This document shows, one piece after another, positions 5,532 to 21,027 of a stretch of DNA of 21,085 bases. Under the pieces are notes generated by a model, which was given only the letters and a program-made list of their open reading frames with translations, ran no database searches and was not told where the DNA came from. How positions within the stretch are numbered: position 1 is the first letter of the stretch; every line of letters begins with the position of its first letter. The stretch is taken from IMG/VR virus record IMGVR_UViG_3300007038_000018, positions 1 through 21,085 of that record; one strand, written 5' to 3'. The DNA comes from a virus. Made by a program: the position numbers and the translations under genes.

Positions 5532-6929
5532 ATGTTGTTTGAGTCCTACAAAGACCTGCCCGACGAGATTCGCCAGCGGGCAGACGTCCAGGCCATCCAC
5601 CGGTCGTGGCGCCCCAAGATCGTCGAGCAGGCCAACCGGCTGCACGAGGACGGGGCCGACCGGAGCGAGGCGGTCGACCAGGCCATCCAGGCCGTCGACC
5701 AGAAGGCCGACAAGGCGACTGAGTGGGTCAAGGTCCACACCACCGGACCGATCGAGCAAGACGGACAGGTTGTCGGGGTGACGCAGGGGTATTTTGAGCG
5801 GACTGTCGCCGAGTTTGACCGCTACCAGTCCGACCTCCAGGAGGCGGGGCTGGAGTGGTATCCGGCGGTGACCCGCCCGGTCTTTGGCCCCCACGTCGAC
5901 TCCGGGCGCCGCGACGGGGATGTCATCGCCCTGAAGGCGGCCCCCGACGAGCTGTGGGCCCAGATTGTCTGGAACCCCCACACCTGGACGGAGCGCAAGC
6001 GGGGGCACCTGCGCCAGCTGTCGGTCAACATCGTCCCTGAGCACAACGATCCGCAGCTGATGACCACCTACGGGCCTCACCTTCGTGAGGTCAGCCCGAC
6101 CAATTTTGGCAAGGACAAGTACGCGGGGATTGAGGCGGCGGTCACCAAGCTGACGGCCGCTGAGTGCGCCGACATCGGCCTCGAGGTCGAGGGGGCCGAC
6201 GAGCCTGACGAGGGGTCAGCCGGCGACGAGCCCGACGGCAAGCAGACGCACGACGAGCCCGACGATACGACTTTGACTGCTGCCCAAGACCAAGAGGACA
6301 CCGTGAAGCTGAGCAAGTGGCTGAATACGAAACTCAAGGCGCTGGACAATCTCTCCGAGGGCGGGTCGATGCCCTCCAAGGCCGACGTCGTCGAGCAGCT
6401 GGCCGACCAGGCCGGGGTCGATGTCGCGCAGGTCGAGGCGCTGGCGTCGGGCAAGATTGCCCACCCGACCGACGCGATGGTCGAGGCGCTGAGCGAGATG
6501 TTCGGCGTCGGGGTCGACAAGATCCGGGCGGGCAACCTGTCGACGGGTGAGCCCGACGAGTCCGGCGACGACCCCGAGGAGGGCGAGGGCATGGAGGGGG
6601 CCGGCGACGGGGAGGGGGTGGGCGAGGACAAGGCGCCCGGCATCGCCGCTTCGGAGTCCGGCCCCGACCACAGCGACCAGATCATGGCCAAGCTCGACGA
6701 GCTCGAGCAGCGGGTCGCCCGCCAGGAGCGGGTCGCCCAGAAGAACACCGCCCAGCAGTCCAACCCCGGCGAGCAGCCGCTGGTCGCCGCCGAGGGCGAG
6801 CCGTCCGGCGACGGGCCCGACTGGTCGGATATGTCCGACAAGGAGGCGCTCGACCGGGTCAAAGACGAGACCGAACTGGTCGGCCACGAGGCGGCCAACG
6901 AGGCGCGCCGCCGACAGGGCAAAGCCTGA
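5532..6929 (+). CDS. Prohead protease fused to Cro-like HTH and scaffold region
   Basis: This 465-residue protein probably cleaves the head scaffold during maturation and also supplies scaffold. Residues 65-205 resemble the Mu gpI-like prohead protease family: a VTQGYFERTVAEFDRY helix, H121 in FGPHVDSG, a DVIALKAAPDELWAQIVW strand pair, and S164 in RQLSVN, proposed as catalytic His and Ser. After an acidic linker (220-255), residues 281-333 form a Cro/XRE-like helix-turn-helix (DVVEQLADQAGVDVAQVEAL then GKIAHPTDAMVEALSEMFGV). Then come another acidic segment, a coiled coil (380-405) and a charged C-terminus, as in scaffolds. A GTG at 6303 (V258) with AGAGGA upstream could start a separate scaffold chain. 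The gene's own ribosome binding site lies inside a hairpin. Confidence 0.75.
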   Translation: MLFESYKDLPDEIRQRADVQAIHRSWRPKIVEQANRLHEDGADRSEAVDQAIQAVDQKADKATEWVKVHTTGPIEQDGQVVGVTQGYFERTVAEFDRYQSDLQEAGLEWYPAVTRPVFGPHVDSGRRDGDVIALKAAPDELWAQIVWNPHTWTERKRGHLRQLSVNIVPEHNDPQLMTTYGPHLREVSPTNFGKDKYAGIEAAVTKLTAAECADIGLEVEGADEPDEGSAGDEPDGKQTHDEPDDTTLTAAQDQEDTVKLSKWLNTKLKALDNLSEGGSMPSKADVVEQLADQAGVDVAQVEALASGKIAHPTDAMVEALSEMFGVGVDKIRAGNLSTGEPDESGDDPEEGEGMEGAGDGEGVGEDKAPGIAASESGPDHSDQIMAKLDELEQRVARQERVAQKNTAQQSNPGEQPLVAAEGEPSGDGPDWSDMSDKEALDRVKDETELVGHEAANEARRRQGKA

Positions 6930-6987
6930 CGCAGACGGGACGCAGACGGAGACGAAAAAAGTCGACTGACATGCAAGCGAGGAGACG

Positions 6988-7734
6988 ATGAACGCACAGC
7001 CGATTCCGCAGGGGCTCAAGATTCAGGGGCGACAGTCCGAAGAGGACATGCCCGACGCGTCGATGCTGGTCAAAGAGGGGACCGGCAACAGCGAGTTCAC
7101 CCCGACGGTGGACCCGGCCGACGAGGTGCTCGGCTACACGAATACGGGCCTCAAGCAGGGTCAGCACGGGGCGATCGTCAGCGGTCTGGGCAGCGTGACG
7201 CTGCTGATGGCCGACGGGGCGGTCGCCAAGGGTGACCGGCTGGCCCCCAGCGGGGCCGGCGGGGCCAAGGCCGGCTACGTCAAGGCCAGCGAGGACGTCA
7301 CCGAGACGTTCGTCGGCTACGCCCTGCAGGCGTGCTCGGACGGCGAGGAGTTTCTGGCCGTCTACCTGGGGCGGGCCGACGAGCCCGAGCGCATCCTGTC
7401 GGCCACGCCGGGGGCGGAGGGCGACGCTGTCGCCGACGCCTTCGACATCGGGCTGGACCAGAATCTGGCGTCGACCGACGAGTGGACGGTCGAGGCGTTC
7501 AGCGACGACGGGACCCGGGCGACGGACATCGAGTTTTCGCTGCAGGATGGCAACGGCTCGATGGTGCTGGGGACCAACACCAACGGGGTCGCCATCTTCC
7601 AGCTGCACACCGACGGCACCGAGACCCTGCGGGCCCTGGACGGGTCCGGGGCGCTGGCCGCCGACGTCCACCTGGTCTTTCGGCCGGTCGACGGAGACGG
7701 GCGCACACTCAGAGAGACGATCGCCTTCGCCTGA
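6988..7734 (+). CDS. Capsid decoration/cement protein with extra C-terminal beta domain
   Basis: The 248-residue product precedes the capsid gene, the usual place for head decoration proteins. Residues 50-130 resemble the DUF2190-like cement family: Gly-rich beta strands with VAKGDRLAPSGAGGAKAGYV, then ETFVGYALQACSDGEEFLAV. Residues 135-248 form a second beta-rich region (DEWTVEAFSDDGTRATDIEF and VHLVFRPVDGDG) that could be an Ig-like fold exposed on the head; that fold is inferred. The start follows GAGGAGACG, nearly the same binding site as the capsid gene, which suits two proteins made in large amounts. The assignment rests on position and strand pattern. Confidence 0.6.
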   Translation: MNAQPIPQGLKIQGRQSEEDMPDASMLVKEGTGNSEFTPTVDPADEVLGYTNTGLKQGQHGAIVSGLGSVTLLMADGAVAKGDRLAPSGAGGAKAGYVKASEDVTETFVGYALQACSDGEEFLAVYLGRADEPERILSATPGAEGDAVADAFDIGLDQNLASTDEWTVEAFSDDGTRATDIEFSLQDGNGSMVLGTNTNGVAIFQLHTDGTETLRALDGSGALAADVHLVFRPVDGDGRTLRETIAFA

Positions 7735-7797
7735 TTGGGGCCTGACGGCCACGGGACAGGCTGACGTTACACGACCGATGACTGCTGAGGAGACAGT

Positions 7798-8742
7798 ATG
7801 ACGCTGCGATTCAAAGACGACATGAACGACCTGGGTCAGGTGTACGTGGGGGAGCTGCTCTCCCAGCAGGCACCGATTCGCGACTCGGTGGCCGTCGACC
7901 TGTTCGGCCCCCGAATGATCGACACCCCCGACGGGCCGATCCCGTGGATTCCGCCCGAATTTCGGACGGCCAATTCCGGCGACCAGTACGTCGGTAAGAT
8001 CGGGCTCAGTGAGCCGGCGCCGTCTATCCAGATCGACCTGGACCACGTCGACATCGAGACGCAGGGGAAGTTCTCCCGCAAGGCGATCATCAGTCGCCAC
8101 GCCGACGAGGTGCTCGACGCGATCGACACCGCGATGGGCCTGACGGGCTACCTGGGGTCGATCGTCAAGGGGTTCAACAACGTGGCCATCGAGCAGGCGG
8201 TCTCGACGATCCTGAAGGACCCGCTCAAAAACGCCACGCAGTCGACCCAGGCGGCCTGGACGTCGGCCAGCTCGGCCGAGCCGTTCGACGACATCGAAAA
8301 CTGCATGGACATCGTCACCTCGGCCGGCGAGACCCCCGACACCATGATCATGGGGCTGGACTACGCCCGGCTGCTGTCGCGGACCGGGGCGATCAAAGGG
8401 GCGGCCGGCCGGTCGATCGATACGACCGGGGATGCCGTCTCCCACGAGGCGGTCCGCGAGATGCTGGTCCGCCGCTTCGGCTTCGACAACATCCTGATCG
8501 ACAACAGCGTCTACCAGAACGACGCCAACAAGGAGTCGACCCCCGACATCAACCGCGTGTACGACGGGACGCTGTGGATCGGCGCCTCCGAGCACATGAT
8601 TGTCCGGGACAAGGAGGATATGCGCGAGTCGGATGCCGGCTACGACTCGGACTCCCAGAACTACTGGACCCTCCAGCACCAGCTGGTCGACTTCTACCGC
8701 GGCATCAACGACGCCGGGGTCATTCTGACGAATGTGACCTGA
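7798..8742 (+). CDS. Major capsid protein
   Basis: This 314-residue protein would be the main HK97-fold shell subunit. Its size fits the family (about 300 residues). An N-terminal helical segment (residues 1-30) leads to PIPWIPPEFRTANSGDQY, where the E-loop region would lie. Later come NCMDIVTSAGETPDTMIMGL (P-domain helix and strand), EAVREMLVRRFGFDNILIDN, and a C-terminal stretch ending GVILTNVT. The pattern 'predefined position, then residues LLVRRFG-like, then trailing Tyr-rich segment' matches Mu T-like capsid proteins. It follows the protease and decoration genes in the standard order and has a strong binding site (GAGGAG, spacer 5). A 7-base hairpin lies just after the stop. Confidence 0.85.
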   Translation: MTLRFKDDMNDLGQVYVGELLSQQAPIRDSVAVDLFGPRMIDTPDGPIPWIPPEFRTANSGDQYVGKIGLSEPAPSIQIDLDHVDIETQGKFSRKAIISRHADEVLDAIDTAMGLTGYLGSIVKGFNNVAIEQAVSTILKDPLKNATQSTQAAWTSASSAEPFDDIENCMDIVTSAGETPDTMIMGLDYARLLSRTGAIKGAAGRSIDTTGDAVSHEAVREMLVRRFGFDNILIDNSVYQNDANKESTPDINRVYDGTLWIGASEHMIVRDKEDMRESDAGYDSDSQNYWTLQHQLVDFYRGINDAGVILTNVT

Positions 8743-8751
8743 TAGGCCGGC

Positions 8752-8773
8752 GGGCCCGGCGGATGTCGGGCCC
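8752..8773 (+). terminator. GC-rich hairpin after the capsid gene
   Basis: A perfect 7-base stem, GGGCCCG (8752-8758) with CGGGCCC (8767-8773), has an 8-base loop, starting 10 bases after the capsid stop. No T-run follows, so it is not a classic intrinsic terminator. It could partly attenuate transcription or protect the capsid mRNA 3' end and so raise capsid yield relative to the connector genes. Confidence 0.4.
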
Positions 8774-8818
8774 TGACGGTGCTGGCTTGGCGCTCGCGCG
8801 ACACGACGGAGACGACGC

Positions 8819-9361
8819 ATGGTCTATCTTGAGACGCACATCGACATTCCGGGGGCAGTCGCCCCCGACGGCAAGCCAATCCCCGAGGGGGCGCTGTTTC
8901 GGGCCTCGGACCGGTGGCTGCAGTCGAGGCGAAGCTCGCCGAATCTGACGCCGGTCACCTACGAGGAGTACTGGGAGGCGGCGGTCGCCGGCCAGGCCCA
9001 CGACGCCGAGCCGTCCGATGCGCCCGAGCGGTTCCGGAGGGCGGCCAAACCGGAGGAGTCGGAGGGCGAACGGCCCGAGCCCGAAGGCGCGCCGAGTCTG
9101 ACCGACGCCGAGCGTGCCGAGGTCGCCCGGGCGTACATCGACGAGCAAGAAGGCCAGATGCGCGACGAGTTGCCAGACGAGCAGCCGGGCGAGGACGCCC
9201 CGGCGGGCGTGCGTATCCTTTGGGCGCTGCTGGAGGGCGACTACCAGCACCGGCGCTCGGTTTTGGCCGACACCTCCGAGCGGTCGGCCCGCGGGAGCGG
9301 TGACGAGCTGGAGGCCCGGCTGCTCGCCGAGCTGTATGACCGCCAGATCGACGAGGAGTGA
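8819..9361 (+). CDS. Unidentified acidic protein between capsid and connector genes
   Basis: The 180-residue product has no family I recognise. Residues 1-55 look folded (VYLETHIDIPGAVAPDGKPI, then ALFRASDRWL and TYEEYWEAAVAG). Residues 57-95 are a charged, Pro-rich linker. Residues 93-180 are predominantly helical and acidic (LTDAERAEVARAYIDEQEG, then GVRILWALLEGDYQHRRSVL, LEARLLAELYDRQIDEE). Position directly after the capsid gene corresponds to the Mu gp35 slot, a small head/neck protein of unclear role, but sequence similarity is not evident. The ATG at 8819 follows GGAG at 8808-8811. It probably takes part in head completion or is a minor virion component. Confidence 0.7.
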   Translation: MVYLETHIDIPGAVAPDGKPIPEGALFRASDRWLQSRRSSPNLTPVTYEEYWEAAVAGQAHDAEPSDAPERFRRAAKPEESEGERPEPEGAPSLTDAERAEVARAYIDEQEGQMRDELPDEQPGEDAPAGVRILWALLEGDYQHRRSVLADTSERSARGSGDELEARLLAELYDRQIDEE

Positions 9362-9366
9362 TATAG

Positions 9367-9792
9367 GTGGCTATCGAGACACATGGCGTGACTCCCGGGG
9401 AGGTGCTCGACGAGTTGCCGATGCCGACCGATGGGGTGACGGCGACGAGCGACGGGCTGTCGACCACCAAGATTGACGGGTGGATTACCCGGGCGGCCGG
9501 GTCGCTCAACGCGATCCTCGTGGGGCGGGACATGGACCCGTCGAGCCTGACAGACAACTGGCGGGAGACGGTCCGCGGGGCGATCATCGCCTATGCGACC
9601 GCCAAGTCACTCGACCAGCGCCAGCTGGACGCCCAGCGGGCCTGGCAGGAGTACGGGTCGCTCAAAAAGACCCTGCGCACCGGCCAGGTCGACGCCGGTG
9701 AGTCGATCGACGCTGAGGCGTCGGTCCGCTCAAATGTCGATACCACCGACACCAAAAGCGCCCCGAAGTGGGGGGCAGGATGGGAGCCATGA
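9367..9792 (+). CDS. Head-tail connector-like protein
   Basis: This 141-residue product starts with GTG at 9367, with GAGGAG at 9353-9358 inside the end of the previous gene. Residues 34-110 are helical: IDGWITRAAGSLNAILVGRD, WRETVRGAIIAYATAKSL, then AQRAWQEYGSLKKTLRTGQV. This resembles Mu gp36/DUF1320 and HK97 gp6-like head-tail adaptors, in which a helical bundle docks under the portal. The first 30 and last 30 residues look flexible. Its place among neck genes supports a connector role. I see the helical pattern and context only, so the family assignment is moderate. Confidence 0.55.
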   Translation: MAIETHGVTPGEVLDELPMPTDGVTATSDGLSTTKIDGWITRAAGSLNAILVGRDMDPSSLTDNWRETVRGAIIAYATAKSLDQRQLDAQRAWQEYGSLKKTLRTGQVDAGESIDAEASVRSNVDTTDTKSAPKWGAGWEP

Positions 9793-10088
9793 CACCGACC
9801 AAGGACACGCCCATCGAGGCCAGGCTAATCCGCCAGTGCGTCCTCCAGATGGAGGATGGCACGCGCCTGCGGTTCGGCGAGACTGTCGAACTGCCAGCCG
9901 AGCGGGTGCGGACCGACGACAAGTTTTGCGCCCACACCGACCGGGGCCGGGTCATTGTGGCCCTGATCGGCAGCTACAACCACCGGCGAATGATCGTTAA
10001 GGGGTTGGGCCTGGAGACGAACGACGAGACCGACGAGTCGTACGTGGCCGCCCTGGAGGCGTACCTGGAGGACGATGTTTCGACTTGA
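9780..10088 (+). CDS. Small unidentified neck-region protein
   Basis: About 102 residues from the ATG at 9780. Beta-rich segments ARLIRQCVLQMEDGTRLRFG, ETVELP and GRVIVALIGSYNHRRMIV suggest a small barrel or sandwich domain, followed by an acidic helical tail (ESYVAALEAYLEDDV). No family recognised. The start is uncertain: GTG 9768, ATG 9780 and ATG 9789 are all in frame. ATG 9789 forms an ATGA overlap with the previous stop but has a binding site only 2 bases away; ATG 9780 follows a G-run with better spacing. Context between connector and tail-completion genes suggests a neck or head-completion role. Confidence 0.6.
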   Translation: MGAMTPTKDTPIEARLIRQCVLQMEDGTRLRFGETVELPAERVRTDDKFCAHTDRGRVIVALIGSYNHRRMIVKGLGLETNDETDESYVAALEAYLEDDVST

Positions 10089-10608
10089 GATCGGCACCGG
10101 TGACGCCAAGGGGATGAGCCGGGTGATCGGGCTGATGATGGAGGTGATCGGCTCGTTGGAGCATGAGTGGCGAAATGTCGTCCATCCGTATCTTTTGCGC
10201 CACTGGGAGAAGCAGTTTGCGACCGAAGGCGAGCACGGTGGGCGCCCCTGGGAGGGGTATGGCGGCGAGCCGAAATACGCCGACCACAAGATGGCCATTG
10301 TCGGCCACCACGACCTGTTGCGCTGGGATAAGGGCGGCAAATACGAGCGGCTGTACCCGTCGATCACCGAGCCGAGCCACACCGAGCACGTCTTCCGGGC
10401 CGACGCGACCAGCATGACCGCCGGGACGGCCGTGCCCTACAGCGACCGACTCATCAGCGGCGGCACCGGGCCCTTCGGTGAGACCTATCCGGGCCGTGAC
10501 TGGCAGCGGATGACGACGAGACAAAAGAAGAAGCTGGTCACACTGATCCAGCGGTCTATCCGGCGCAGGCTGTCGGATGACGCACTCCGAAACGCGAGGA
10601 TTACCTAA
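10075..10608 (+). CDS. Virion morphogenesis / tail completion protein (Mu gpG / P2 gpS-like)
   Basis: This 177-residue protein resembles the phage virion morphogenesis family, which finishes the head-tail junction. Features are an N-terminal helical pair (MSRVIGLMMEVIGSLEHEW), FATEGEHGGRPWEGY where family members have a 'F..EG...G..W' motif, a basic loop, HHDLLRWDKGGKYERLYPSI in place of 'L..TG.L..S', VPYSDRLISGG corresponding to 'YA..HQ.G', and a C-terminal arginine-rich region after GRDWQRMTTRQKKK. The ATG at 10075 follows GGAGG (10067-10071) inside the preceding gene. Its stop overlaps the next ATG by one base (TAATG). Confidence 0.65.
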   Translation: MFRLEIGTGDAKGMSRVIGLMMEVIGSLEHEWRNVVHPYLLRHWEKQFATEGEHGGRPWEGYGGEPKYADHKMAIVGHHDLLRWDKGGKYERLYPSITEPSHTEHVFRADATSMTAGTAVPYSDRLISGGTGPFGETYPGRDWQRMTTRQKKKLVTLIQRSIRRRLSDDALRNARIT

Positions 10609-11192
10609 TGCCCGTCGACGTCGACAAAGCGGTCAGCGCACTTATCGCCCGCACCCGCCAGGTGCTGGGCGACCGGCTGCCCGCCGAGCTGTCCGACCAG
10701 GAGGCCGACGCGTCGGGCCACTACCCGCTGCCGGCTCCGGAGCGGTACATCCTCGGCCGGGTCGACACCGCCGAGGCGTTTGGTCGGTTGAATGTCGACG
10801 AGGTCGCCTGCTGGATCACCAAGGCCGGGGCGGGCGACAATCAGCAGCTGTTCTCGGGGGCGGCCGACAAGCGGTCGGCCAGCCAGGACGTCATCTTGCG
10901 GGTGGGCCTGGTCGCCAAGGAGCGGGCCGGAGCAGACATCCCGCCCACTCTGCCTGACGGGACGGATCTTGGCCGGCAGCTGCTCGAGATGGAGTGGAAC
11001 GACCAGCGGGCCGAGCTGTACAAGGGGGCGATCATCAATGCGCTGACCCGGTATCTGCCCGACCCGGACGTCGCCGGAGAGGTCGAGCTCGCCGCCAACG
11101 GGGCCAACGGCGAGGTCATCGAGAATCTGGGCCGGGCCGCCTCGGCGGTCGTCGACATCGAAATCACCCAAGACATCCTACTGCACAGGTAA
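10608..11192 (+). CDS. Probable tail terminator / neck protein
   Basis: The 194-residue product has alternating helix and strand: ALIARTRQVLGDRLP at the N-terminus, PAPERYILGR, SQDVILRVGLVAK, a long helix LLEMEWNDQRAELYKGAIIN, and a final strand with AASAVVDIEITQDILL. This is the general order of tail terminator proteins (Mu gp37 or lambda gpU type), which cap the tube and stop its growth. Position immediately before the tube gene fits. No diagnostic motif is visible, so the call is inferred from context and topology; another neck subunit is possible. Confidence 0.45.
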   Translation: MPVDVDKAVSALIARTRQVLGDRLPAELSDQEADASGHYPLPAPERYILGRVDTAEAFGRLNVDEVACWITKAGAGDNQQLFSGAADKRSASQDVILRVGLVAKERAGADIPPTLPDGTDLGRQLLEMEWNDQRAELYKGAIINALTRYLPDPDVAGEVELAANGANGEVIENLGRAASAVVDIEITQDILLHR

Positions 11193-11198
11193 TCAGGC

Positions 11199-12254
11199 AT
11201 GTCCGACAATCTTGCAAAGCGCTTTCTGATCGGCGGGATCCCCGAGGACGCCTACGGGTCAGGGACCGACGGGACGACCGACTTTACGACCGGGCATGAC
11301 CCCGACGACTGGTATGCCGTCCGCACGCAGGGCGAGCCGCCCTTCTCCGAGGTCATCAACACGATCGCCAACCAGGAGATGACGGCGACCCACTCGACCA
11401 AGAAGAGCCACAACTACGGTCACCGGCTGGACGTCAGCCTGACGGTTCCGCTGAAGGGCAAAAAGTCGACGGCCGGCGACCCGCCGTTCGGGTCGTGGTT
11501 GCTGAAGGCGATGAACCTCGAGGAGACGGTCAATGCGACGACCTCGACGGTCTACCGGCCGGTCACCGGGGACGACCAGACGCGCGTCCCGTCGGCGGCG
11601 CTGGCGATGTACATGTTTACCCGGGGCTACGACGACGCGTACCGCTGGGTGTGCAAGGGGGTGCGAGGCAACGGCACGCTGACCCTCGAGATGGGCGAGA
11701 ATGCGACCCTCGGCTTTGAGGGGGCCGGGCTGTATGCCCCGTGGCCGACCGATCTGCACGTGGCCGACAACGCCAACACGCTGCCGACCACGCCGACCGA
11801 GTATTCCGGCGAGAAGAACACCCTGGAGGTCATCGGCATGACCTTCGAGGTCGACACCGGCTCGGGGCTGACCGCCTACCCGATCGAGTCGATGGACCTG
11901 CAGACCAACTGGAGCCTGCAGGAGGATATGGTCGGGACCAAGGCCGACCGGACCCTCGAGCAGTTGTACCTGGAACGGGGGTCGGAGGACCCGCCCGGCG
12001 GGGGCATCACTTTCAAGGGGCGGTCGGCGGCGATGAAGGCGATCTTGCCGCTGGCAAGCTCCGGGGCCGACTGTCAGATCACGGTCACTCTGTCGGACGG
12101 GACCGACACCGTCGAGCTGAACATCCCGGTCGTGCAGTTCTCCGAGCAGACCGTCTCGCTGGAGGGGTCGACCTTCGATGCCACCTACGCCGCCCGGGGC
12201 GACTTCGGGTCGGGCGGGGCGGCCGAGACGGACTTCGAGCTGACGTACACCTGA
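11199..12254 (+). CDS. Major tail tube protein
   Basis: At 351 residues this would polymerise into the tail tube. The sequence is beta-rich with YGHRLDVSLTVPLKGKKS, a central helix around SWLLKAMNLEE, AMYMFTRGYDDAYRWVCKG, then GNGTLTLEMGENATLGFEGA and IESMDLQTNWSL, the pattern of long tube proteins. After residue about 265 a further beta domain (SSGADCQITVTLSDGTDTVE, IPVVQFSEQTVSLEG) completes the protein. It lies between the terminator candidate and the tail chaperone genes, exactly where the tube gene sits in siphophages. No sheath gene precedes it, so the tail should be non-contractile. The start has only a weak binding site (CAGG). Confidence 0.75.
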   Translation: MSDNLAKRFLIGGIPEDAYGSGTDGTTDFTTGHDPDDWYAVRTQGEPPFSEVINTIANQEMTATHSTKKSHNYGHRLDVSLTVPLKGKKSTAGDPPFGSWLLKAMNLEETVNATTSTVYRPVTGDDQTRVPSAALAMYMFTRGYDDAYRWVCKGVRGNGTLTLEMGENATLGFEGAGLYAPWPTDLHVADNANTLPTTPTEYSGEKNTLEVIGMTFEVDTGSGLTAYPIESMDLQTNWSLQEDMVGTKADRTLEQLYLERGSEDPPGGGITFKGRSAAMKAILPLASSGADCQITVTLSDGTDTVELNIPVVQFSEQTVSLEGSTFDATYAARGDFGSGGAAETDFELTYT

Positions 12255-12278
12255 TTTTTTTGATGACAGGAGAGACCG

Positions 12279-12695
12279 ATGGCACTGGACCCGACGACAC
12301 TCGACGAGCCGGACGGCACCTTCACCCTGCAGGTCAAAGGCGAGCAGCTGGTCTTTGAATACCGGATCGTCGACGACTTCGCCAAGCCCGACGAGCTCAA
12401 GCGTGCCTCGGCCTTCTGGGAGATGGTCGAAGCGGAGGACGACGAGCCCGAGGAGGGCGACCGGCAAGAGGCGTCGATCACGGACGTCGAGCTGGTCGAG
12501 GAGGACTTCAAGCCGCTGATCGACTTTGTGCACCGGCAGGTGTGCGGGGTCAAAAGCGGCCTGACCGTCGACTGGGGGGACCTCGAGGAGTCGAGGCAAC
12601 GCCAGATCCTGCGGCGAGACACCAGCGGGCTGGTCGAGGCGTATGTGCAGATCATGGGCGATGACGGGATCGGGGAGGACGAAAAAAAGAGCTGA
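12279..12695 (+). CDS. Tail assembly chaperone, short form (gpG-like)
   Basis: The 138-residue protein is acidic and helical and starts after AGGAGA. Residues 12-32 form a strand pair (DGTFTLQVKGEQLVFEYRIV), followed by helices at 34-52 and 72-90 and GLVEAYVQIMGD near the end. Its place between tube and tape measure genes matches lambda gpG and similar chaperones, which coat the tape measure during tail assembly. The frame ends with GAC GAA AAA AAG AGC TGA, containing an A AAA AAG slippery heptamer (12683-12689). A -1 slip would extend the chain. Identification is mostly from position plus this slippery site. Confidence 0.8.
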   Translation: MALDPTTLDEPDGTFTLQVKGEQLVFEYRIVDDFAKPDELKRASAFWEMVEAEDDEPEEGDRQEASITDVELVEEDFKPLIDFVHRQVCGVKSGLTVDWGDLEESRQRQILRRDTSGLVEAYVQIMGDDGIGEDEKKS

Positions 12696-13009
12696 CCACA
12701 TACCTGCGTCAAGTCTACCTGACCGACCCGTGCGAGTGCCCGGTATGCACGGACCCGGACGCAGATGTCACCCGCCAGCAGGCCGGGTGTGACTGGCGGG
12801 GCGCCTCTCCCCGGGCGGCCCGTAGGTTTTCGGTCTACCGGCTGTATGTCGAGCGGGGCAATACCCCGCTGATTGACCTGCCGCCGTGGGTCGCCGAGGT
12901 GGCCCGTCTGGCCGCCCACTACGAGGGGATGAGCCGACAGCAAGACTACCACGACCGTCAAGAGCGTGAGCGCTGCAAGAATTTGCAGCGTCAATACGGA
13001 ATGACCTGA
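12279..13009 (+). CDS. Tail assembly chaperone, long frameshifted form (gpGT-like)
   Basis: After a -1 slip on A AAA AAG the ribosome continues from GAG at 12689 to the TGA at 13007-13009, adding 106 residues to the first 137, 243 in total. The extension begins ELTTYLRQVYLTDP, has high GC third positions, and has no start codon with a good binding site, so frameshifting is the natural way to express it. C152, C154, C157 and C171 form a Cys cluster (C-x-C-x2-C-x13-C) that might bind metal. The C-terminal part is basic and helical (HYEGMSRQQDYHDRQERERC). Its stop overlaps the tape measure ATG (TGATG), as in other siphophages. In lambda, the T part binds the tube subunit. Confidence 0.8.
12683..12689 (+). 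promoter_or_regulatory. Slippery heptamer for -1 programmed frameshift
   Basis: A AAA AAG lies in the correct phase of the upstream gene (AAA 12684-12686, AAG 12687-12689). A GGGGAGG stretch at 12672-12678 just upstream could act as an internal Shine-Dalgarno stimulator. The zero-frame stop follows 3 bases after the next codon starts (TGA 12693-12695). A 6-base hairpin (12728-12733 with 12747-12752) is probably too far downstream to help. Confidence 0.8.
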
Positions 13010-15678
13010 TGGCCGTCACATTCGACATTGAAGCGCTGAACGAGGCGTCGGATACGCTGGAGGATATCCAGCGTGACATGGACGACCTGCGTGATTCTGC
13101 CAATGATGTCGGCGACGAGACGTCCGACTCGATGGACGATGCGTCTGACTCGATGGATCGGGCGGGCGGGTCGGCTGAGACGCTCGGCGACAAGATGCGC
13201 CGAGTCGGCAAAGGGGTTGCCAATGTGGGGGCGGAGATGGCGGCTGCGGGGGCGGCGGCTGCGGTTGGTATCGGGGTCAAAAGCGTCCAGGCGGCCGGCC
13301 GGTTTGAGGATGCAATCGCGTCGGCGGCGGCCAAGACGTCCAACGCCCAGTTGTCGATGGAGAAGTTCAACGCCGCCGCCAAGCAGGCGGGGCAAGTGTC
13401 GACCAAAAGCGCCACCGATGCGGCCGGTAGCCTGCAGTTTCTGGCCCAGGCGGGCCTGTCGGCCCAGCAGTCTGTCGAGGCGCTTCCGGGGGTGCTCGAG
13501 TTGTCGGCGGCCGGCAGCCTGGATCTTGCGCAGGCATCCGACATTGCCACCAACGTCCTGTCCGGGATGCGCCTGGAGGTGGCAGACCTTGCCCGGGTCA
13601 ACGACGTGCTGGTGGCCGCCTCCTCGGCGGCAAACACAGGAGTCGGGGAGCTTGGGCAGGCCTTCAGTTTTGTGGCACCCAAGGCGCGAGCCGTCGGGAT
13701 GTCCGTCGAGCAGACGGCAAGCATCCTCGGGACACTCGCCAATGCCGGCATCAAGTCGACCCGGGCGGGGCGCGGGCTCCGGTCGGCGCTGGCGGCCTTG
13801 CAGAACCCGACCGACAAACTTCAGGCGGTCCTCGACAAAACAGGGATCTCGCTTCGGAAGGCCGACGGGGATATGCGGGCCTTCTCGTCGATCATCCAGG
13901 ACTTCTCAGACGCCGGGGCGCTCAAGCAGCTCAGCGGCTCGATGAGTAGCGTGGCCGGGTCGGTCGTTGAGGTGGTCGGCCCGGCGATCTCAGAGGTCGG
14001 CGAGCTGCGCAAAGGGTTTCAGGAGGCAGGGGGCGAGGCCCAGAAGCAGGCAGAACTGATGCGCTCGTCGATGGGCGCGCAGCTCGAGATCCTGAAGGGG
14101 TCGTTTGAGACGCTGATGGTGACGATGGGGGAGCGGTTCAAGCCCGTCGTCATGTCCGTGTCCAGTGAGTTGACGAACCTGTCGAACGAATCAGCCAAGG
14201 CGGCGGATGCGCAAAAAGGCGTATCAAAGGAGATGCGGGAGACGGCTCAGGTATCCGGTGAGCTGACCGCAGTGCTCGGCGAGCTGTTGCCCCTGCTGGG
14301 AGCGGCGGCGACAGACGTGGCTGGGGGGTGGTCGTTTACCGGTAAGCTTGCCTCGACGGGCACAAAAGCGATCGGCACGATGGTCGGGCTTCGGGACAGC
14401 TCCGAGGAGGCGAGCCGGGGGCTGCGCCGATACAAGGAGGCGACAGAAGGGGCTGCGGGCGTCGGGGAGATGCTCAGCGCAGTGTCTGCTGGGCAAAACG
14501 GCCAGCTCGACTTGCTTGGCAGCACGACCGACGAGGTCTACGAGGCGAACAAGCGGCTTGCCGAGGCGACACGTCAGTACGGACTCGAGTCCGATGAGGC
14601 CAAAGAGGCAGCCAAAGAACTGCAGGAGGCGATGGGGCAGCAAGCGGGCGGGGCGGCGACCGCATCGACGGCCTTCGAGACGCTGGGGCAAAAGGCCCGC
14701 GATGCGGCGGTGTCGATGTTCGGGGCGAAAACGCTGACTAAGGCCAACGTCAAGTGGGAATTGCTCAAGGGCCATGTCAACAACGCCAAAGACGCCCTGC
14801 AGACGTACATGGAGAAGCAGGTCGCCCAGCAGGAAAAGGCCAACGACCGGCTGAACCTCGAAAAAGACATCACCAAAGAGAAGCAAAAGCAGGCCGACCT
14901 GTCCGGGTTTGTCGGCGACTTCAAGACGACGGGCGGGATCACGGAAGGGGAGGCCAAGCGGCGCGGGGCGTCGGGCTTCGGGCTGGCCAACTCCGGCGGG
15001 GGCGAGACAGCCAGCCTCTCCGAGATTGCCGGGCCGGCCGGGCGCACCGACGGGGAGGAGGCGGCGCGCCGGTCACGCTTTGCGCGGGCGCGCCGGGCAG
15101 CCGAGCAGGCCAAGGCGGGCAAGCAGGCCAAGCTGCAAAAGGAGCTGACCGAAGACGTCGCCCAGCAGCAAAGCGCCGTCAAGCAAGAGATCCAAAATAC
15201 GACCACCGCGGCATCGGGGCTGGTGTCGACGCTGGCTCAGCTTCCCGCCGAAGGGTCGGCCGCCGCCGAGTCGATGAAGCGGGTCGCCTCGGCGATTCAG
15301 GGCGCCCAGGCTGTCGCCCAGGGGATCAACACCGCCCTGTCGGCCGCCTCCGGGTTCGGCATTGCGGGGGGCGTGCTGTCGGCGCTGTCTGCCGTCGCCG
15401 GAGTCGTCGCGCCGCTTTTTGGGGGCGACGCCGAGGAGGCGGCCAATGCGGCCGGGGCGAAGGTCGACGAGACGATCACCAAGGCGTCGGCCCGCAACCG
15501 GCGCCGCTCAAAGCAGGATCTCACCGAGGCGTTTACCGCCGCGCTGGAGGCCTCTCAGTCGGGGCCGGCCGGAGGAAGCACCAACGTCTTCAGCGATAAT
15601 GTCTTCTTGCAGGAGTCCGACCGGGTCGCCGCCCAGATCAACCAGGCGACCCGGCGCGGCTCCGAGACGAGGATGTGA
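13009..15678 (+). CDS. Tail tape measure protein
   Basis: This 889-residue protein sets tail length and is injected with DNA. Residues 1-75 are acidic and heptad-like (TLEDIQRDMDDLRDSANDVG). Residues about 85-370 match the TP901-type tape measure core: RFEDAIASAAAKTSNAQLSM, a LEVADLARVNDVLVAASSAA segment, VGMSVEQTASILGTLANAGI and SSMGAQLEILKGSFETLMVT. Residues 590-760 are coiled-coil with many Gln and Lys. Residues 765-806 are hydrophobic and Ala/Gly-rich, a likely membrane-insertion segment. The start overlaps the chaperone extension stop. By the ruler relation, the length predicts a tail of about 130 nm. Confidence 0.92.
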   Translation: MAVTFDIEALNEASDTLEDIQRDMDDLRDSANDVGDETSDSMDDASDSMDRAGGSAETLGDKMRRVGKGVANVGAEMAAAGAAAAVGIGVKSVQAAGRFEDAIASAAAKTSNAQLSMEKFNAAAKQAGQVSTKSATDAAGSLQFLAQAGLSAQQSVEALPGVLELSAAGSLDLAQASDIATNVLSGMRLEVADLARVNDVLVAASSAANTGVGELGQAFSFVAPKARAVGMSVEQTASILGTLANAGIKSTRAGRGLRSALAALQNPTDKLQAVLDKTGISLRKADGDMRAFSSIIQDFSDAGALKQLSGSMSSVAGSVVEVVGPAISEVGELRKGFQEAGGEAQKQAELMRSSMGAQLEILKGSFETLMVTMGERFKPVVMSVSSELTNLSNESAKAADAQKGVSKEMRETAQVSGELTAVLGELLPLLGAAATDVAGGWSFTGKLASTGTKAIGTMVGLRDSSEEASRGLRRYKEATEGAAGVGEMLSAVSAGQNGQLDLLGSTTDEVYEANKRLAEATRQYGLESDEAKEAAKELQEAMGQQAGGAATASTAFETLGQKARDAAVSMFGAKTLTKANVKWELLKGHVNNAKDALQTYMEKQVAQQEKANDRLNLEKDITKEKQKQADLSGFVGDFKTTGGITEGEAKRRGASGFGLANSGGGETASLSEIAGPAGRTDGEEAARRSRFARARRAAEQAKAGKQAKLQKELTEDVAQQQSAVKQEIQNTTTAASGLVSTLAQLPAEGSAAAESMKRVASAIQGAQAVAQGINTALSAASGFGIAGGVLSALSAVAGVVAPLFGGDAEEAANAAGAKVDETITKASARNRRRSKQDLTEAFTAALEASQSGPAGGSTNVFSDNVFLQESDRVAAQINQATRRGSETRM

Positions 15679-16604
15679 TGGCGTTGGGGATCGACAGGTG
15701 GGTCTATGAGGTCGAGATCACCTCGAGCAACAACACGATCGTTTTTGTGGAGCGGGACGCGGGGGGCACGTTGACGGCGACGGTGACCGTCGACCCGGGC
15801 ACCTACCACTGTGTGCTGGATACCGGACTGGTGCCGGCACAGATTGACGGGCTGTACAACGAGATCGAGCAGGCCGTCGGGGCCGGCGCGGAGCTGCCGG
15901 GGGCAGGATCGTACAGCCTGGAACGCATCGACCCGACAGCCTCGGCCAACACCTTCGGCAAAAAGTCCGGCCTCCGGCTGGCCTACAGTGACACTGATCT
16001 CGACGAGTTCGGGTGGGTCTTCTCGGATGCAAATTTTACTTTCCCGCCCGAACTGCTGGGCTACCTGGACGGCCGGTCGTCCGATGCGACGACGACCGCC
16101 CAGCAGCTAGACGCCCCCCACACCTGCTGGGGGACGTGGACTTCCCCGCGGGTCGCCAAGAAGGTCGGCTGGCCGCGCTTCGAGCAGCGGCATACCGGGG
16201 TGTCCTTCAGTCAGTTCGTCAACGTCCGCTGGGGTTCACAAAAGCTGCGCCGCCCCTTCAAGTACCACAATCTTCCGGCCGTCCACATCCACCGAGGGCG
16301 GGCTTCTCGTGATGCGTACGCCGAGGTTGGCCAGCTGGCCGATGACGATGACAACAACGCCTTCGAGGATGTCTGGCGGGCGATGAGTGACGGAGGTGAG
16401 GCGCTGGTCTTCCACGACCACGGCGACACCGTCGACGACTTCGCCAACCAGGATGAGTGGGAGTTGGTGCGCTTTCCGGACGAGGTGCTCGCCGGAGATA
16501 TCGACTTTCGGGACGTACCGACCGAGCAGAGCCGATCGGCGGAGTTTTACACCCTCGACTTTGAGGTCGAGGTCGACACTACTCTCAGCCCCTACACCTA
16601 CTGA
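15678..16604 (+). CDS. Tail tip protein, possible distal tail component
   Basis: The product is 308 residues from the ATG at 15678, which has GAGGA at 15669-15673; a GTG at 15675 would add one residue with a poor spacing. It is beta-rich and Trp/Tyr-rich: IDRWVYEVEITSSNNTIVFV, then YHCVLDTGLVPAQIDGLYNE, FGWVFSDANFTFPPELLGYL, CWGTWTSPRVAKKVGWPRFE and a closing strand AEFYTLDFEVEVD. Immediately after the tape measure gene is where distal tail proteins lie in siphophages. No family is recognised with confidence. Its stop overlaps the following hub gene by one base. Confidence 0.45.
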   Translation: MALGIDRWVYEVEITSSNNTIVFVERDAGGTLTATVTVDPGTYHCVLDTGLVPAQIDGLYNEIEQAVGAGAELPGAGSYSLERIDPTASANTFGKKSGLRLAYSDTDLDEFGWVFSDANFTFPPELLGYLDGRSSDATTTAQQLDAPHTCWGTWTSPRVAKKVGWPRFEQRHTGVSFSQFVNVRWGSQKLRRPFKYHNLPAVHIHRGRASRDAYAEVGQLADDDDNNAFEDVWRAMSDGGEALVFHDHGDTVDDFANQDEWELVRFPDEVLAGDIDFRDVPTEQSRSAEFYTLDFEVEVDTTLSPYTY

Positions 16605-18979
16605 TGGCCGTCCGAAAGACATACAATGTCGGGGTGCACATACAGGGGGTCTGCGGGGTCGACGGAGGGGTCAACGCCGACGGGAATCTGTTTACCTTCG
16701 CCGACGCCCCGACGGCGACGCCCGGGTATGACTTCGGGCTCTACCAGATCCTGACCGAAAAGCCCGACGTGCTCTCCTCGTCGGTCGACTTTCTGACCGC
16801 CGACTACGACGTCGCCCAGGCGACCTTTCGGCTCCTGGAGCTCGAGGAGTTGACGGGGGTGCTCGCCACGCAGTCGGGCGATGAGGCGACCCACGCCGTC
16901 GAGGCGGACTTCTCGGATGCCGCGACGACCGCCCAGATCGCCGGACCGTCTCTGCTGTCGACCGGCTTTTATTTCATCGGCGATGAGACGATCCGAGTCA
17001 CCGGGACGACCGGCGCGACCGGCGCGGGCTGGGTCGAGTACAACATCCTACGCGGGCAGGGCCTCAGCCCCCAGCAGCGCCACGAGACGGGTCAGCTGGT
17101 ACTCGAGCGGGTGCCCAATATCACCGGGCGCCCGGTCCGGGTGTTTCTGCTCGAGGAGGGGGTTGCCGAGGACGTCCAGTATACCGGCATGCTGACCAAG
17201 CGTCAGTTCTCGGCCGGAAAGGGCATCGTCTCGTTGCCTAGCAAGGAGACGCTCCACGCTTTGAAAGGGGCCAAAATCGGCGATGCTCGTCAGGCGTTGA
17301 CCGCCAAGCAGGGCGGGCGCATCCGGGCGTATCCCGATCGGTTTGAGGGGGCCCTCAAATTCAACACCGACGATCCCGGCTTCCGGCACAGCTTTGTCGA
17401 CCCAAACCCCGGAGGCCTCAAGCAGACGGTCCTTCAGATCGGCGATCATCTGGTGGTTGCCCAGCAGCGTTTTTTTGCCGAGCACGACGACCGCCTCGAG
17501 ATACTCGGCGACCCGGAGGACAAGCTGTTTTCGGGGCTGACCGGCGACTACGACGTCGAGCTTGTCGGCCCCAAAAAGTTTGAGTCACTGGAGGAGTCCA
17601 AGCCCGTCTACGAGCCGTTTGTCCACGGGCCGGAGTTTTCGCACCTGTACGAGTCGGCCACCCCGACAAACGAGGGCCCGGCCGATCCCGGCCACGGGGG
17701 CACTTACCGCCGTCATGTGCTGGGCCACTGTCTGGCCTTTGCGACGTCGACGGGCAATCGTGACAACGCCAACAAGAATGGGCGCTACGACATCTACTCG
17801 GCCAACTGGGGGGCAGGCATCCCGGCCAGTCTGATCGACCTGGACGCCTTCGAGGCGATGATGCGCCAGCACCCCGGCGACATCGCCTATCGGTACGTGC
17901 TCGGCTGGGGAAATGAGACCGTCGACATATGGCCGTGGATGAAGCAGGCCTTGCTGCGGTCGCGCAACTACGTCGTGGTGCCCGGCGATGATGGCCGGCT
18001 TCGGCCCGTCAAATTTCGTGCTCTCGCCCAGCGGGACGCCCAACAGCTTGTCGACAGCCGCGCCTCGGCCCTGATCGCCCCGACGACCCTCGACGGAGAC
18101 TACCGAAACGACCAGGCCCGTACCCGCCTGCAGGGAGTCTGGGGCAAGCTGCCATTCTTTGGCGGCGAGCCGGTCACCTCCGAGAAGTACGCGACCCGCG
18201 GGGAGTTTTTGCAGCGGGAGAAAAAGCAGGAGTTCGACTACACCGTCTACGCCTCGGCCGATCTCGCCCAGGATGATCTCGACGCCAAGATCAACGTCCG
18301 CGACAGTCTGCCACCCCTCCTGGAGTTCGAGGCGCTCATCGAGCATACCAAGGTGACTCCGGAGGGGGTGGCCGGCGGGGAGGTGCCCCAGGTCGGCCAG
18401 TGGGTTCGGCTTCTGGGCGGTCCCGGTCGGGGCATCGAAGGCTACGACGGTCAACTGTTTCAGCTCGACGACGAGCCGGTCCGGGCGACCGGGCGGATCG
18501 AGTCCCGCGACGTCGACCTCGACAAGGGGTCGGTACGTCTGTCAGTGCTGATGCTTGGCTGGGCGGGGCGCAATCCGACCCGCGTGGTCGCGCCGGTCGC
18601 CCAGCTCGACGGCACCACGGGCACCGACGGGGGCGGGCGCCCCTATGTCGGCTACACCGGCGAGCTGCCGTCGGCCGACGCCGCCGACGAGCCCGGCTTC
18701 CTCTCCGGCGATGATGTTCGACTCCACCAGAAGAACGGTCGGGAGTGGTACGTCGACGAGCAGCGGTCGGTCGTCGAGGTCGATGAGGCGAATAGCCGGA
18801 TTGTGCTCGACCAGTCATTCAGCGACGTCGAATCTGGTCTGCTTCTGCGGTGCGCCAAAGAGCCGAACTTCAGCAACACCAGCTGGGGCGGGTCCTCTTT
18901 CTTTGGTGGCGATCTCGCAGACAGGCGTTATGCTTACGTCAGCGTCACCACCGAAGAGCCTGATGCCTACGCGAGATAG
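16604..18979 (+). CDS. Large tail tip / hub protein
   Basis: This 791-residue protein is the largest after the tape measure and sits where tail hub proteins are encoded. Residues about 120-170 contain the module GFYFIGDETIRVTG...YNILRGQGLSPQQRHETGQLV, which resembles a repeated unit in many phage tail-tip proteins ('IG.E.IRVT...V.RG..GT...H..G'). Residues 430-640 are mixed alpha/beta, with DIWPWMKQALLRSRNYVVVP like hub domains that bind the tube end. The C-terminal 150 residues are beta-rich. Function (hub, receptor contact or both) is inferred from size and position. It is followed after 10 bases by a lipoprotein gene. Confidence 0.6.
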   Translation: MAVRKTYNVGVHIQGVCGVDGGVNADGNLFTFADAPTATPGYDFGLYQILTEKPDVLSSSVDFLTADYDVAQATFRLLELEELTGVLATQSGDEATHAVEADFSDAATTAQIAGPSLLSTGFYFIGDETIRVTGTTGATGAGWVEYNILRGQGLSPQQRHETGQLVLERVPNITGRPVRVFLLEEGVAEDVQYTGMLTKRQFSAGKGIVSLPSKETLHALKGAKIGDARQALTAKQGGRIRAYPDRFEGALKFNTDDPGFRHSFVDPNPGGLKQTVLQIGDHLVVAQQRFFAEHDDRLEILGDPEDKLFSGLTGDYDVELVGPKKFESLEESKPVYEPFVHGPEFSHLYESATPTNEGPADPGHGGTYRRHVLGHCLAFATSTGNRDNANKNGRYDIYSANWGAGIPASLIDLDAFEAMMRQHPGDIAYRYVLGWGNETVDIWPWMKQALLRSRNYVVVPGDDGRLRPVKFRALAQRDAQQLVDSRASALIAPTTLDGDYRNDQARTRLQGVWGKLPFFGGEPVTSEKYATRGEFLQREKKQEFDYTVYASADLAQDDLDAKINVRDSLPPLLEFEALIEHTKVTPEGVAGGEVPQVGQWVRLLGGPGRGIEGYDGQLFQLDDEPVRATGRIESRDVDLDKGSVRLSVLMLGWAGRNPTRVVAPVAQLDGTTGTDGGGRPYVGYTGELPSADAADEPGFLSGDDVRLHQKNGREWYVDEQRSVVEVDEANSRIVLDQSFSDVESGLLLRCAKEPNFSNTSWGGSSFFGGDLADRRYAYVSVTTEEPDAYAR

Positions 18980-18989
18980 GGAGGATACC

Positions 18990-19361
18990 ATGCGCCGACT
19001 GATATGGATGATGTGCCTGCTGGGGGTGGCCGCCGGATGCGGGCCCGTCGACCGCGATGCCGACTTGGGGGTCGACGCGGGGCAGATGGGAGATGCCGCC
19101 GAAGAGTGCCTCGACACCGAGGCCGTTGACTGCACCGAGCAGGAGGCGCAGGCGTATGCGGGCGCGTGGAACCGACAGAAGCGCGACCCGCGTGAGAGGT
19201 GGCGGTTATTCGAGTGTGATGATGGCCCTGTTCAACATGTCAGCAAGCCCAAAAACGGCAGAGATGTTCAAGAGTGCGACTGGACCACCGGCCGCTGGGA
19301 TGGCGAGCAGTGGCACGGCGACGAAGGTCCGGGCGAGTGGCAACCCGTCTGTATTTGCTGA
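18990..19361 (+). CDS. Secreted lipoprotein in the tail operon
   Basis: The 123-residue product has a lipoprotein signal: basic MRRLI, hydrophobic WMMCLLGVAA, and a lipobox ending at G16-C17. The mature chain starts CGPVDRDADLGVDAGQMGDA, a style common in deltaproteobacterial lipoproteins. It then carries six more Cys (C40, C48, C76, C96, C121, C123), enough for three disulfides, and six Trp. This fits an extracytoplasmic protein anchored in the outer membrane. The start has GGGAGG upstream. Stops and starts are 10 and 6 bases from its neighbours, so it is co-expressed with tail-tip genes. It could be a T5 Llp-like receptor blocker, an outer-membrane spanin, or a host-derived passenger gene; none is proven. 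Confidence 0.75.
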   Translation: MRRLIWMMCLLGVAAGCGPVDRDADLGVDAGQMGDAAEECLDTEAVDCTEQEAQAYAGAWNRQKRDPRERWRLFECDDGPVQHVSKPKNGRDVQECDWTTGRWDGEQWHGDEGPGEWQPVCIC

Positions 19362-19367
19362 GGAGCT

Positions 19368-19559
19368 ATGAGTTTCGACGGCACAGATTTCCAGCGCCTC
19401 CACCTCGATGAGACCCACGGAGAGGACCGGCCGTACGATGCCGGATTTCTGCGCCAGACGCGCAGCAACGTCGTCTTCTTGAACCGCGAGCGTGGCCGGG
19501 CAGGGGGTCAAGACGATCGAGCTAGACATCTGGTATCGCGTCTCCGATGCCGTCTCTGA
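19368..19559 (+). CDS. Short frame that is probably the 5' part of the next tail gene
   Basis: The ATG follows AGGAG overlapping the lipoprotein stop. The first about 44 residues (MSFDGTDFQRLHLDETHGED, GFLRQTRSNVVFLNRERG) have high GC third positions. The last about 18 residues are Arg-rich with many A/T third positions and look non-coding, while the +1 frame over the same bases looks coding. This suggests the coding frame switches near a run of five G at 19503-19507. It could be a frame break from an indel, a +1 frameshift, or simply a short protein overlapping the next gene. Confidence 0.55.
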   Translation: MSFDGTDFQRLHLDETHGEDRPYDAGFLRQTRSNVVFLNRERGRAGGQDDRARHLVSRLRCRL

Positions 19560-21027
19560 TCCTGATGCGGTCAGCGGGACCGGCGAGGGAGTATCGGGCA
19601 CCAACCAATCTGACACTGCCGTGGATGTCCGGCTGGCGACCCCGGGCGCCCTTCAGGCGGGCGGCGAGCCAGCGGTCACCACGCTGACCCCCGAGCGGGA
19701 CGCCAGCGGCGAGGAGTTGTGGCAGCGGGCGACGATCACGGCGACGATTGCCCCGGACTATGCAGCGTCGATTGATCACTTCGCCCAGATGCTGGCCGCC
19801 CTCGAGATTCAGTCCACTCCCATCAATACGTCGGTGACCTCCGCCGGCGTGACTGCCAGCTCGTTCGCCAGCCGGCTGGATACCGACGACGGCACCTTCT
19901 TTCCCGCTTCCCCGAACGATTACGACCCGCTGGGCCCGTCCAATCCGTGGACGATGTATGTCGCCCCATCGGGGCATGCGCCGGCCAACTTGATGGCCTA
20001 CGGCGGAGTCTCACAGGGGTCTGACAGCGACAGCGCCGAGGTGGACTCGTACGACTGGACGGATGTCAACAGCGGAGAGACGGTCGACCTAAAGCCGCTG
20101 TCGTACCTGCAGCTTCGCGCCGGTGCGCTTCGGACGACCTATTACGATCTCGGCAGCCAGTACAGCGGGGTCGACATCTCCGAGCCGGATACGTACGCCG
20201 ATCGGGACCCGTCGGGTAGTGTGCCGCGAAGACTTGCCCAGAATCTCAACCAGGCCCGCCGCCGCCCCGAGCCTCTGTGTGTCGGCACGCAGGCGAGCCC
20301 GTTTGGCGATGACCCCAACCTCGATGGCAACGGCTCGTGGGGCGAGGGGGCGGCCAACAACTTCGCGATGGCCCACGGCTACCACGTCGCCGCCCGTCAG
20401 TCGGCCTACATCGGCGGGCACACCGACAGCTACACGACCCTGTACGACGAGCGCGGGGTCGCCCCGCGGCATGTCACCTACGCGAAATTTGAGGCGATGG
20501 GGCTGGCTTTTCTGTCGTCGTTTCTCAACGACCCCGATGCCGGCTGGAAGGAGTCGGACGCCGGGATTGTGGCCGACGTCACATTTCGGGCGACCGTCTA
20601 CGAGATCGCTGGATCCGGCCCCTCACAGGTCGCCCAGGAGACCGCCACGGTCACCGACACGCCCGTCTATTTGACCAACGGCGCCTCCAAGGCCCAGCTA
20701 CTTCAGCAGCTACACTTCCTGTTTTTGCCGTCGGGGGGCACCGGAAACGACGAGCCGAACCTGGTCTTTAAGGAGGGGCATCTGGACACCTCGACGGCGG
20801 ACGTCAGCGACCTGCCCAGCGGGTCGCCCATCGACGACTACATGACCCCGGACCTGTGGTGCGACATCTCCGGGCGCGACCCTGACCTTCCGCTCCGCTT
20901 TGAGCTGGAGTGCAAGATCGATGCGATGACTCCGGCGTACGTGGTCAACGACCTTGAGCCGGTCTTCTCGAGCAACCTCAACGGCGTCGTCTCCACCGCC
21001 TTCTCTGTCTGGGGGTTCGACCTGTGA
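19492..21027 (+). CDS. Tail tip/minor tail protein
   Basis: The frame encodes 511 residues from GTG 19492. There is no good ribosome binding site before this GTG, and the frame has a stop at 19480-19482, so the true N-terminus may come from the 19368 frame. If one G is skipped in the run at 19503-19507 the combined product would be 552 residues. The protein is beta-rich with Ser, Thr and Asp: VKTIELDIWYRVSDAVSD, ATITATIAPDYAASIDHFAQ, YDWTDVNSGETVDLKPLSYL, VTFRATVYEIAGSGPSQVAQ, and a terminal beta segment ending SVWGFDL. No family recognised. Position after the hub suggests a tail tip or receptor-binding role. Its stop forms a GTGA overlap with the next gene. Confidence 0.6.
   Translation: MAGQGVKTIELDIWYRVSDAVSDPDAVSGTGEGVSGTNQSDTAVDVRLATPGALQAGGEPAVTTLTPERDASGEELWQRATITATIAPDYAASIDHFAQMLAALEIQSTPINTSVTSAGVTASSFASRLDTDDGTFFPASPNDYDPLGPSNPWTMYVAPSGHAPANLMAYGGVSQGSDSDSAEVDSYDWTDVNSGETVDLKPLSYLQLRAGALRTTYYDLGSQYSGVDISEPDTYADRDPSGSVPRRLAQNLNQARRRPEPLCVGTQASPFGDDPNLDGNGSWGEGAANNFAMAHGYHVAARQSAYIGGHTDSYTTLYDERGVAPRHVTYAKFEAMGLAFLSSFLNDPDAGWKESDAGIVADVTFRATVYEIAGSGPSQVAQETATVTDTPVYLTNGASKAQLLQQLHFLFLPSGGTGNDEPNLVFKEGHLDTSTADVSDLPSGSPIDDYMTPDLWCDISGRDPDLPLRFELECKIDAMTPAYVVNDLEPVFSSNLNGVVSTAFSVWGFDL

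Follow-up and report, generated by a model that had tools for sequence, protein, structure and literature searches.

What would a lipoprotein gene do in the midst of the tail genes of a phage, and could its product hide the receptor that the tail tip recognises? This question is raised by an IMG/VR virus record of 21,085 bp, which was analysed over its whole length and is called the window below. The record carries a terminase gene (Pfam Terminase_6N, E 1.8e-21; phrog_979, E 3.2e-111) and, by a weak match, a major head protein gene (phrog_1005, E 4.5e-08). The tail features on which the analysis bears are the following.

13009..15678, plus strand: tail tape measure protein, 889 aa (PF10145, E 5.8e-38; phrog_1533, E 5.3e-74)
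15675..16604, plus strand: candidate distal tail protein, 309 aa (from its position; no confident family match)
16604..18979, plus strand: candidate tail hub protein, 791 aa (from its position; no family match)
18980..18989, plus strand: 10-bp gap before the lipoprotein ATG, GGAGGATACC, with the Shine-Dalgarno-like word GGAGG
18990..19361, plus strand: gene of a 123-aa predicted outer-membrane lipoprotein (from the open reading frame, its signal and its composition)
19362..19367, plus strand: 6-bp gap before the next ATG, GGAGCT, with the Shine-Dalgarno-like word GGAG
19368..21027, plus strand: candidate tail-tip/receptor-binding gene (from gene order and strain variability)

Position and coding status of the lipoprotein gene

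The genes thus follow each other in the order tape measure gene, 309-aa gene, 791-aa gene, lipoprotein gene and broken tip candidate. The original prediction had placed the lipoprotein gene between hub and tip genes. The in-line placement was found as described; the two neighbours are best called putative, as neither the hub nor the tip candidate protein gave a family match and both labels come from strain variability and from the order of the genes that follow the tape measure gene. Upstream of this region, the -1 frame stays open through the 313-bp gap that precedes the tape measure gene (region 12279-13006), where A AAA AAG stands at 12683-12689 in the right phase for a -1 frameshift. A programmed -1 frameshift of a tail assembly chaperone, of the G/GT type, is likely at 12279-13006.

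The limits predicted for the lipoprotein gene, 18990-19361, proved exact, with an ATG at 18990, a TGA stop at 19359-19361 and 123 codons for amino acids. The operon-like spacing was likewise borne out, since the upstream junction reads TAG-GGAGGATACC-ATG and the downstream junction TGA-GGAGCT-ATG, with gaps of 10 and 6 bp and a Shine-Dalgarno-like word at both starts. An alternative ATG upstream (18963) is not preceded by such a word. No promoter or terminator was predicted at the gene by a scan that covered promoters of the sigma-70 type, and the operon layout suggests that the gene would be expressed late.

Among the six frames, the lipoprotein frame had the best codon score. Its synonymous codons gave a z value of +5.1 against uniform usage and of -5.1 against the phage's own habit, the latter being the lowest among the 16 genes tested, followed by the tape measure gene (-4.7). 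Since codon usage is above uniform yet below the habit of the phage, it was concluded that the open reading frame is coding, though atypical in codon choice.

Such atypical usage also fits the recent acquisition of a gene with any function. The product could be cargo, that is, an acquired surface lipoprotein parked in the tail operon, which would alter the infected or lysogenic cell otherwise than through the receptor, for instance by preventing the entry of DNA or by shielding the envelope. The deviation from the phage's own codons (z -5.1) argues for this explanation, which we nevertheless consider rather unlikely: a cargo gene is not usually set so tightly (10 and 6 bp) between genes of the same strand, nor does it usually lack a predicted promoter and terminator.

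Signal sequence and composition of the predicted lipoprotein

The protein is laid out as follows.

1-16: signal peptide, MRRLIWMMCLLGVAAG
17: Cys, predicted to be lipidated
about 18-39: acidic linker, GPVDRDADLGVDAGQMGDAAEE, rich in Asp, Ala and Gly
about 40-123: domain with six Cys and six Trp

The 12 residues that precede Cys17 have a mean hydropathy of 2.04 and Cys17 is followed by Gly at +2, a residue that by the E. coli rule does not lead to retention in the inner membrane. The mature part of 107 aa begins with CGPVD and contains, besides Cys17, six Cys (40, 48, 76, 96, 121, 123) and six Trp (60, 71, 98, 103, 108, 117). One further Cys and one further Trp lie in the signal peptide itself and are outside this count, so that the six Cys, or three potential disulfides, and six Trp announced by the original prediction are right when the signal and Cys17 are set aside. 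The structure model of the protein was too poor for use (mean pLDDT 43.6).

The signal had been called clear, and this was upheld in part. The sequence passed a broad, PROSITE-like lipobox rule and failed the strict box [LVI][ASTVI][GAS]C, having Ala at -3. When the lipobox was applied without the hydropathy and Shine-Dalgarno terms, second-order Markov controls had on average 3.1 matches per window (0.65 at an ATG), so the lipobox alone is not significant. The full signal rule combined the broad lipobox with an ATG, a Shine-Dalgarno-like word and a hydropathy of at least 1.5. With this rule, the lipoprotein gene was the sole gene of the window to pass, a match of any kind was present in 1 of 200 controls, and no match was observed in 14 other viral loci (L004-L017, 206,734 bases). 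Of five known exclusion lipoproteins, the full rule recovered those of T5, T1 and Rtp; N15 Cor and mEp021_81 escaped it. The lipoprotein signal therefore exceeds chance by the count of controls.

The Asp/Ala/Gly-rich acidic linker after CGPVD seems to resemble the lipoproteins of myxobacterial or saline-habitat hosts, a style that would also suit cargo taken from such a host. Isoelectric points lie between 4.1 and 5.7 in 15 of the 16 phage proteins, the remaining one being basic (9.5). Taken as a lead only, the linker style and the low isoelectric points may point to a myxobacterial or saline-habitat host.

Relatives of the lipoprotein and of its neighbours

The lipoprotein had no match in Pfam at E values up to 1, none among the PHROGs families at E values up to 10, and none in NCBIfam, PADLOC or plasmid records. 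Phage records gave three matches at chance level (E 2-6), as did the PDB, where the best E value was 0.54. The sole other copy was found in IMGVR_UViG_3300006982_000112 (L003, 16,241 bp), which carries an identical gene and belongs to nearly the same virus. Apart from this near-identical sister contig, the predicted protein is an orphan among the collections searched, and the novelty in sequence that had been claimed for it can be maintained.

Close homologues among host housekeeping lipoproteins had been named beforehand as an observation that would speak against the masking idea. No bacterial homologue was found in genome_contigs (84,980 species) by a search that required exact 8-residue matches and thus reaches close relatives only; within the same reach, this also counts against the acquisition of a host lipoprotein as cargo.

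Scans of viral records retrieved just L003, except for the terminase scan, which gave 14 further contigs among which no tail relatives were present. A scan of bacterial genomes gave four clostridial terminase relatives, which were uninformative, and the phage relatives of the terminase, tape measure and portal proteins point to many different hosts.

The neighbourhood and the searches also bear on a lysis function. Lipoproteins of phage lysis modules exist, and the signal rule picked up a small example in the lysis region of mEp021, so that an outer-membrane lipoprotein of the spanin type may be envisaged here. We regard this as very unlikely: no holin, endolysin or inner-membrane partner was recognised alongside among the genes scanned, the flanking genes both in the window and in L003 have the appearance of tail genes, the 107-aa domain is rich in Cys and Trp, and no spanin family was matched at E values up to 10.

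Exchange in the candidate tip gene next to a constant lipoprotein gene

The sister contig L003 is 99.96% identical to the window over 6616-19495. In the 12,877 bp of 6616-19492, four differences were counted, and the lipoprotein gene is free of them. These differences (13080, 13259, 13271 and 14332) are all inside the tape measure gene. The two sequences then diverge from about 19493 to 20978, after which they rejoin. In the divergent block, the pieces that can be aligned share 73-79% of their DNA and the proteins are 55% identical; the NG86 estimates are 0.40 for dN and 1.33 for dS (487 of 488 aligned codons), which corresponds to a dN/dS ratio of about 0.3.

In L003, the tip candidate is intact and encodes 585 aa (L003:12753-14510). 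In the window it is broken into two open reading frames, one of 63 aa and one of 511 aa. At the break (19492/19493) about 140 bp are missing, through either a genuine deletion or faulty assembly. The structure model of the tip candidate, with a pLDDT of 30.0, was too poor for use. Judged from the two sequences, such an exchange within identical flanks, with purifying selection acting on the block, would be the pattern expected of a receptor-binding protein.

The whole lipoprotein gene and the first 125 bp of the tip gene are outside the exchanged block; hence the lipoprotein stays the same when the tip differs. The original prediction had proposed a matched pair made of a receptor-binding tip protein and a receptor-masking lipoprotein. 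As an identical lipoprotein gene stands alongside two tip alleles of 55% identity, a strictly matched pair is weakened, it being understood that both tip alleles could share one receptor.

The constancy of the gene between the two strains, which it shares with most of its structural neighbours, can also be read in another way. The lipoprotein might be a tail component or an assembly factor that builds the tip or rides in the virion, where a lipid/Trp domain would aid contact with the outer membrane. Its gene is placed in line right between the hub and tip candidates, a site where structural genes are expected, which agrees with such a role. We judge it improbable nonetheless, because the export signal would remove the protein from the cytoplasm, the place of tail assembly, and because none of the five known lipoproteins at such sites is annotated as part of the virion. 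In a special form of this proposal, which seems to us highly improbable, a lipidated tail-tip part, carried in the tip or required there, would use its lipid and its Trp-rich, disulfide-stapled domain to help the tip dock into the outer membrane, and one gene would serve both the virion and the cell surface.

Layout and families of the known exclusion lipoproteins

In coliphages, RBP and SE genes are identified from their place beside gpJ (PMC9586334), and the same locus logic appears together with a Cor cassette in PMC11990801 and PMC13164509. Llp is described as a periplasmic protein that attaches to the plug of FhuA and makes two outer loops fold inward (PMC9586334), while Rtp45 binds LptDE from the periplasmic side, Rtp44 being taken as the receptor-binding protein (PMC12685063). 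The mEp lipoproteins are placed in the structural cluster, and phages are excluded upon their expression (PMC11893012). Exclusion lipoproteins are said to avert wasteful adsorption to infected cells and lysis debris (PMC9586334, PMC12685063, PMC11990801). A literature search with narrow terms gave no match for a late, in-line exclusion lipoprotein.

It had been stated that in T5 the llp gene lies beside the receptor-binding gene. This was confirmed, and the lipoprotein genes of T1, N15, Rtp and mEp021 are likewise beside tail-tip or receptor-binding genes. Four of these five genes run against the direction of the tail genes: T5 llp is opposite to oad and has its own promoter, T1 cor is opposite to the tail genes, and rtp45 and mEp021 gp81 stand immediately upstream of rtp44 and gp80, respectively, in pairs opposite to the tail genes. 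The fifth, N15 cor, runs with the tail genes; 111 bp separate it from gene 23 upstream and 211 bp from a tail fibre gene downstream. The order lipoprotein gene, then receptor-binding or virion gene, is found in two of the five cases (Rtp and mEp021). In both, the genes of the pair overlap by 1 bp; a 6-bp gap separates those of the window.

The mature lengths are 62 aa in T5, 59 in T1, 57 in Rtp, 62 in N15 and 57 in mEp021, against 107 aa for the protein of the window. Besides Cys1, two Cys are present in the T5, T1, Rtp and N15 proteins, four in mEp021_81 and six in the window lipoprotein. The profile phrog_1119 is matched by T5 Llp, T1 Cor and N15 Cor, and PF24052 by Rtp45 and mEp021_81. Local alignments of the window lipoprotein with Llp, T1 Cor, Rtp45, mEp021_81 and Mx8 p58 and p59 scored below the shuffled mean; the best score, obtained with N15 Cor, was reached by 18 of 500 shuffles, which is unconvincing among seven comparisons.

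Late expression had also been argued from T5. The T5 gene gives no argument for it, since Llp is early (an early protein, according to the title of a reference) and is transcribed by its own promoter on the other strand.

A possible receptor-masking function

We tentatively propose, as a real possibility that may well prove wrong, that the gene encodes an outer-membrane lipoprotein which, late in infection, conceals the receptor or puts it out of action. This reading is favoured by a signal beyond chance together with a site beside tail-tip genes, as in the five known cases; by a position directly before a candidate receptor-binding gene, as for the receptor-binding or virion genes of Rtp and mEp021; and by the strain variability of that next gene between identical flanks. 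The lipoprotein would be synthesised along with the tail proteins and exported; after lipidation at Cys17 it would reach the outer membrane. There, the disulfide-stapled domain would most likely bind the outer-membrane protein recognised by the tail tip, or its neighbour. The bound receptor would no longer accept the phage, and the infected cell and its debris would then cease to trap new virions.

Against this reading, the protein resembles no known exclusion lipoprotein or family, is longer (107 versus 57-62 aa) and has six Cys, its gene is in line with the tail genes, and an identical lipoprotein accompanies two divergent tip alleles. The suggestion of Llp-like masking is supported in part, by a location beside a tip candidate that recalls T5, T1, N15, Rtp and mEp021; the lack of similarity and the greater length speak against it.

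If receptor masking is the function, receptor-hiding lipoproteins would not be confined to coliphages and to a 60-aa, one-disulfide design. An unrelated, larger, multi-disulfide design would have arisen, made along with the tail. According to the Llp-FhuA and Rtp45-LptDE structures, a receptor can be shut from inside, and new families could lead to new receptors and new closures.

Comparison with known systems

T5 Llp and the window lipoprotein are both small, are encoded beside a receptor-binding gene (a candidate here), have extra Cys and presumably an outer-membrane anchor. Llp differs by its 62-aa mature part with one Cys pair, encoded on the opposite strand and expressed early from its own promoter; the window protein has 107 aa and six Cys, is encoded in line with the tail genes and shares no sequence similarity with Llp.

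The two Cor proteins of N15 and T1 resemble it in that their genes adjoin a J-like tip gene, and in N15 the two share a strand, with a tail fibre gene next in line. N15 cor differs by its wider spacing (111 and 211 bp) and by the putative terminator that follows it, and both Cor proteins by mature parts of 59-62 aa with one Cys pair. Among the Cor/Llp traits, a lipoprotein signal by the broad rule is present in the window. The gene adjoins a strain-variable gene whose role at the tip is putative. The phrog_1119 profile, the short mature part (about 60 aa) with a single Cys pair and separate transcription are absent.

In the Myxococcus phage Mx8, a structural gene is closely followed by two genes, p58 and p59 (L031:33297-34251), on the other strand. 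Their products are lipoprotein-like, of 141 and 154 aa, with a mature start CGGPD to be compared with CGPVD. They differ from the window gene by their opposite strand, and no similarity was detected beyond the start (z -0.1 and -0.5). As p58 and p59 follow a structural gene with no annotated receptor-binding gene alongside, they lend some support to the cargo explanation.

Returning to receptor masking, Rtp45 and mEp021 gp81 (PF24052, phrog_4281) share with the window lipoprotein a gene directly before, and on one strand with, that of Rtp44 or gp80, the counterpart in the window being the tip candidate. They are unlike it in their 57-aa mature parts, in the orientation of the pair opposite to the tail genes, and in showing neither sequence nor profile similarity. 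By profile, size and Cys pattern, the predicted lipoprotein falls outside both known families. The analogy with Llp is reasonable, but Rtp45-Rtp44 is a better match than T5.
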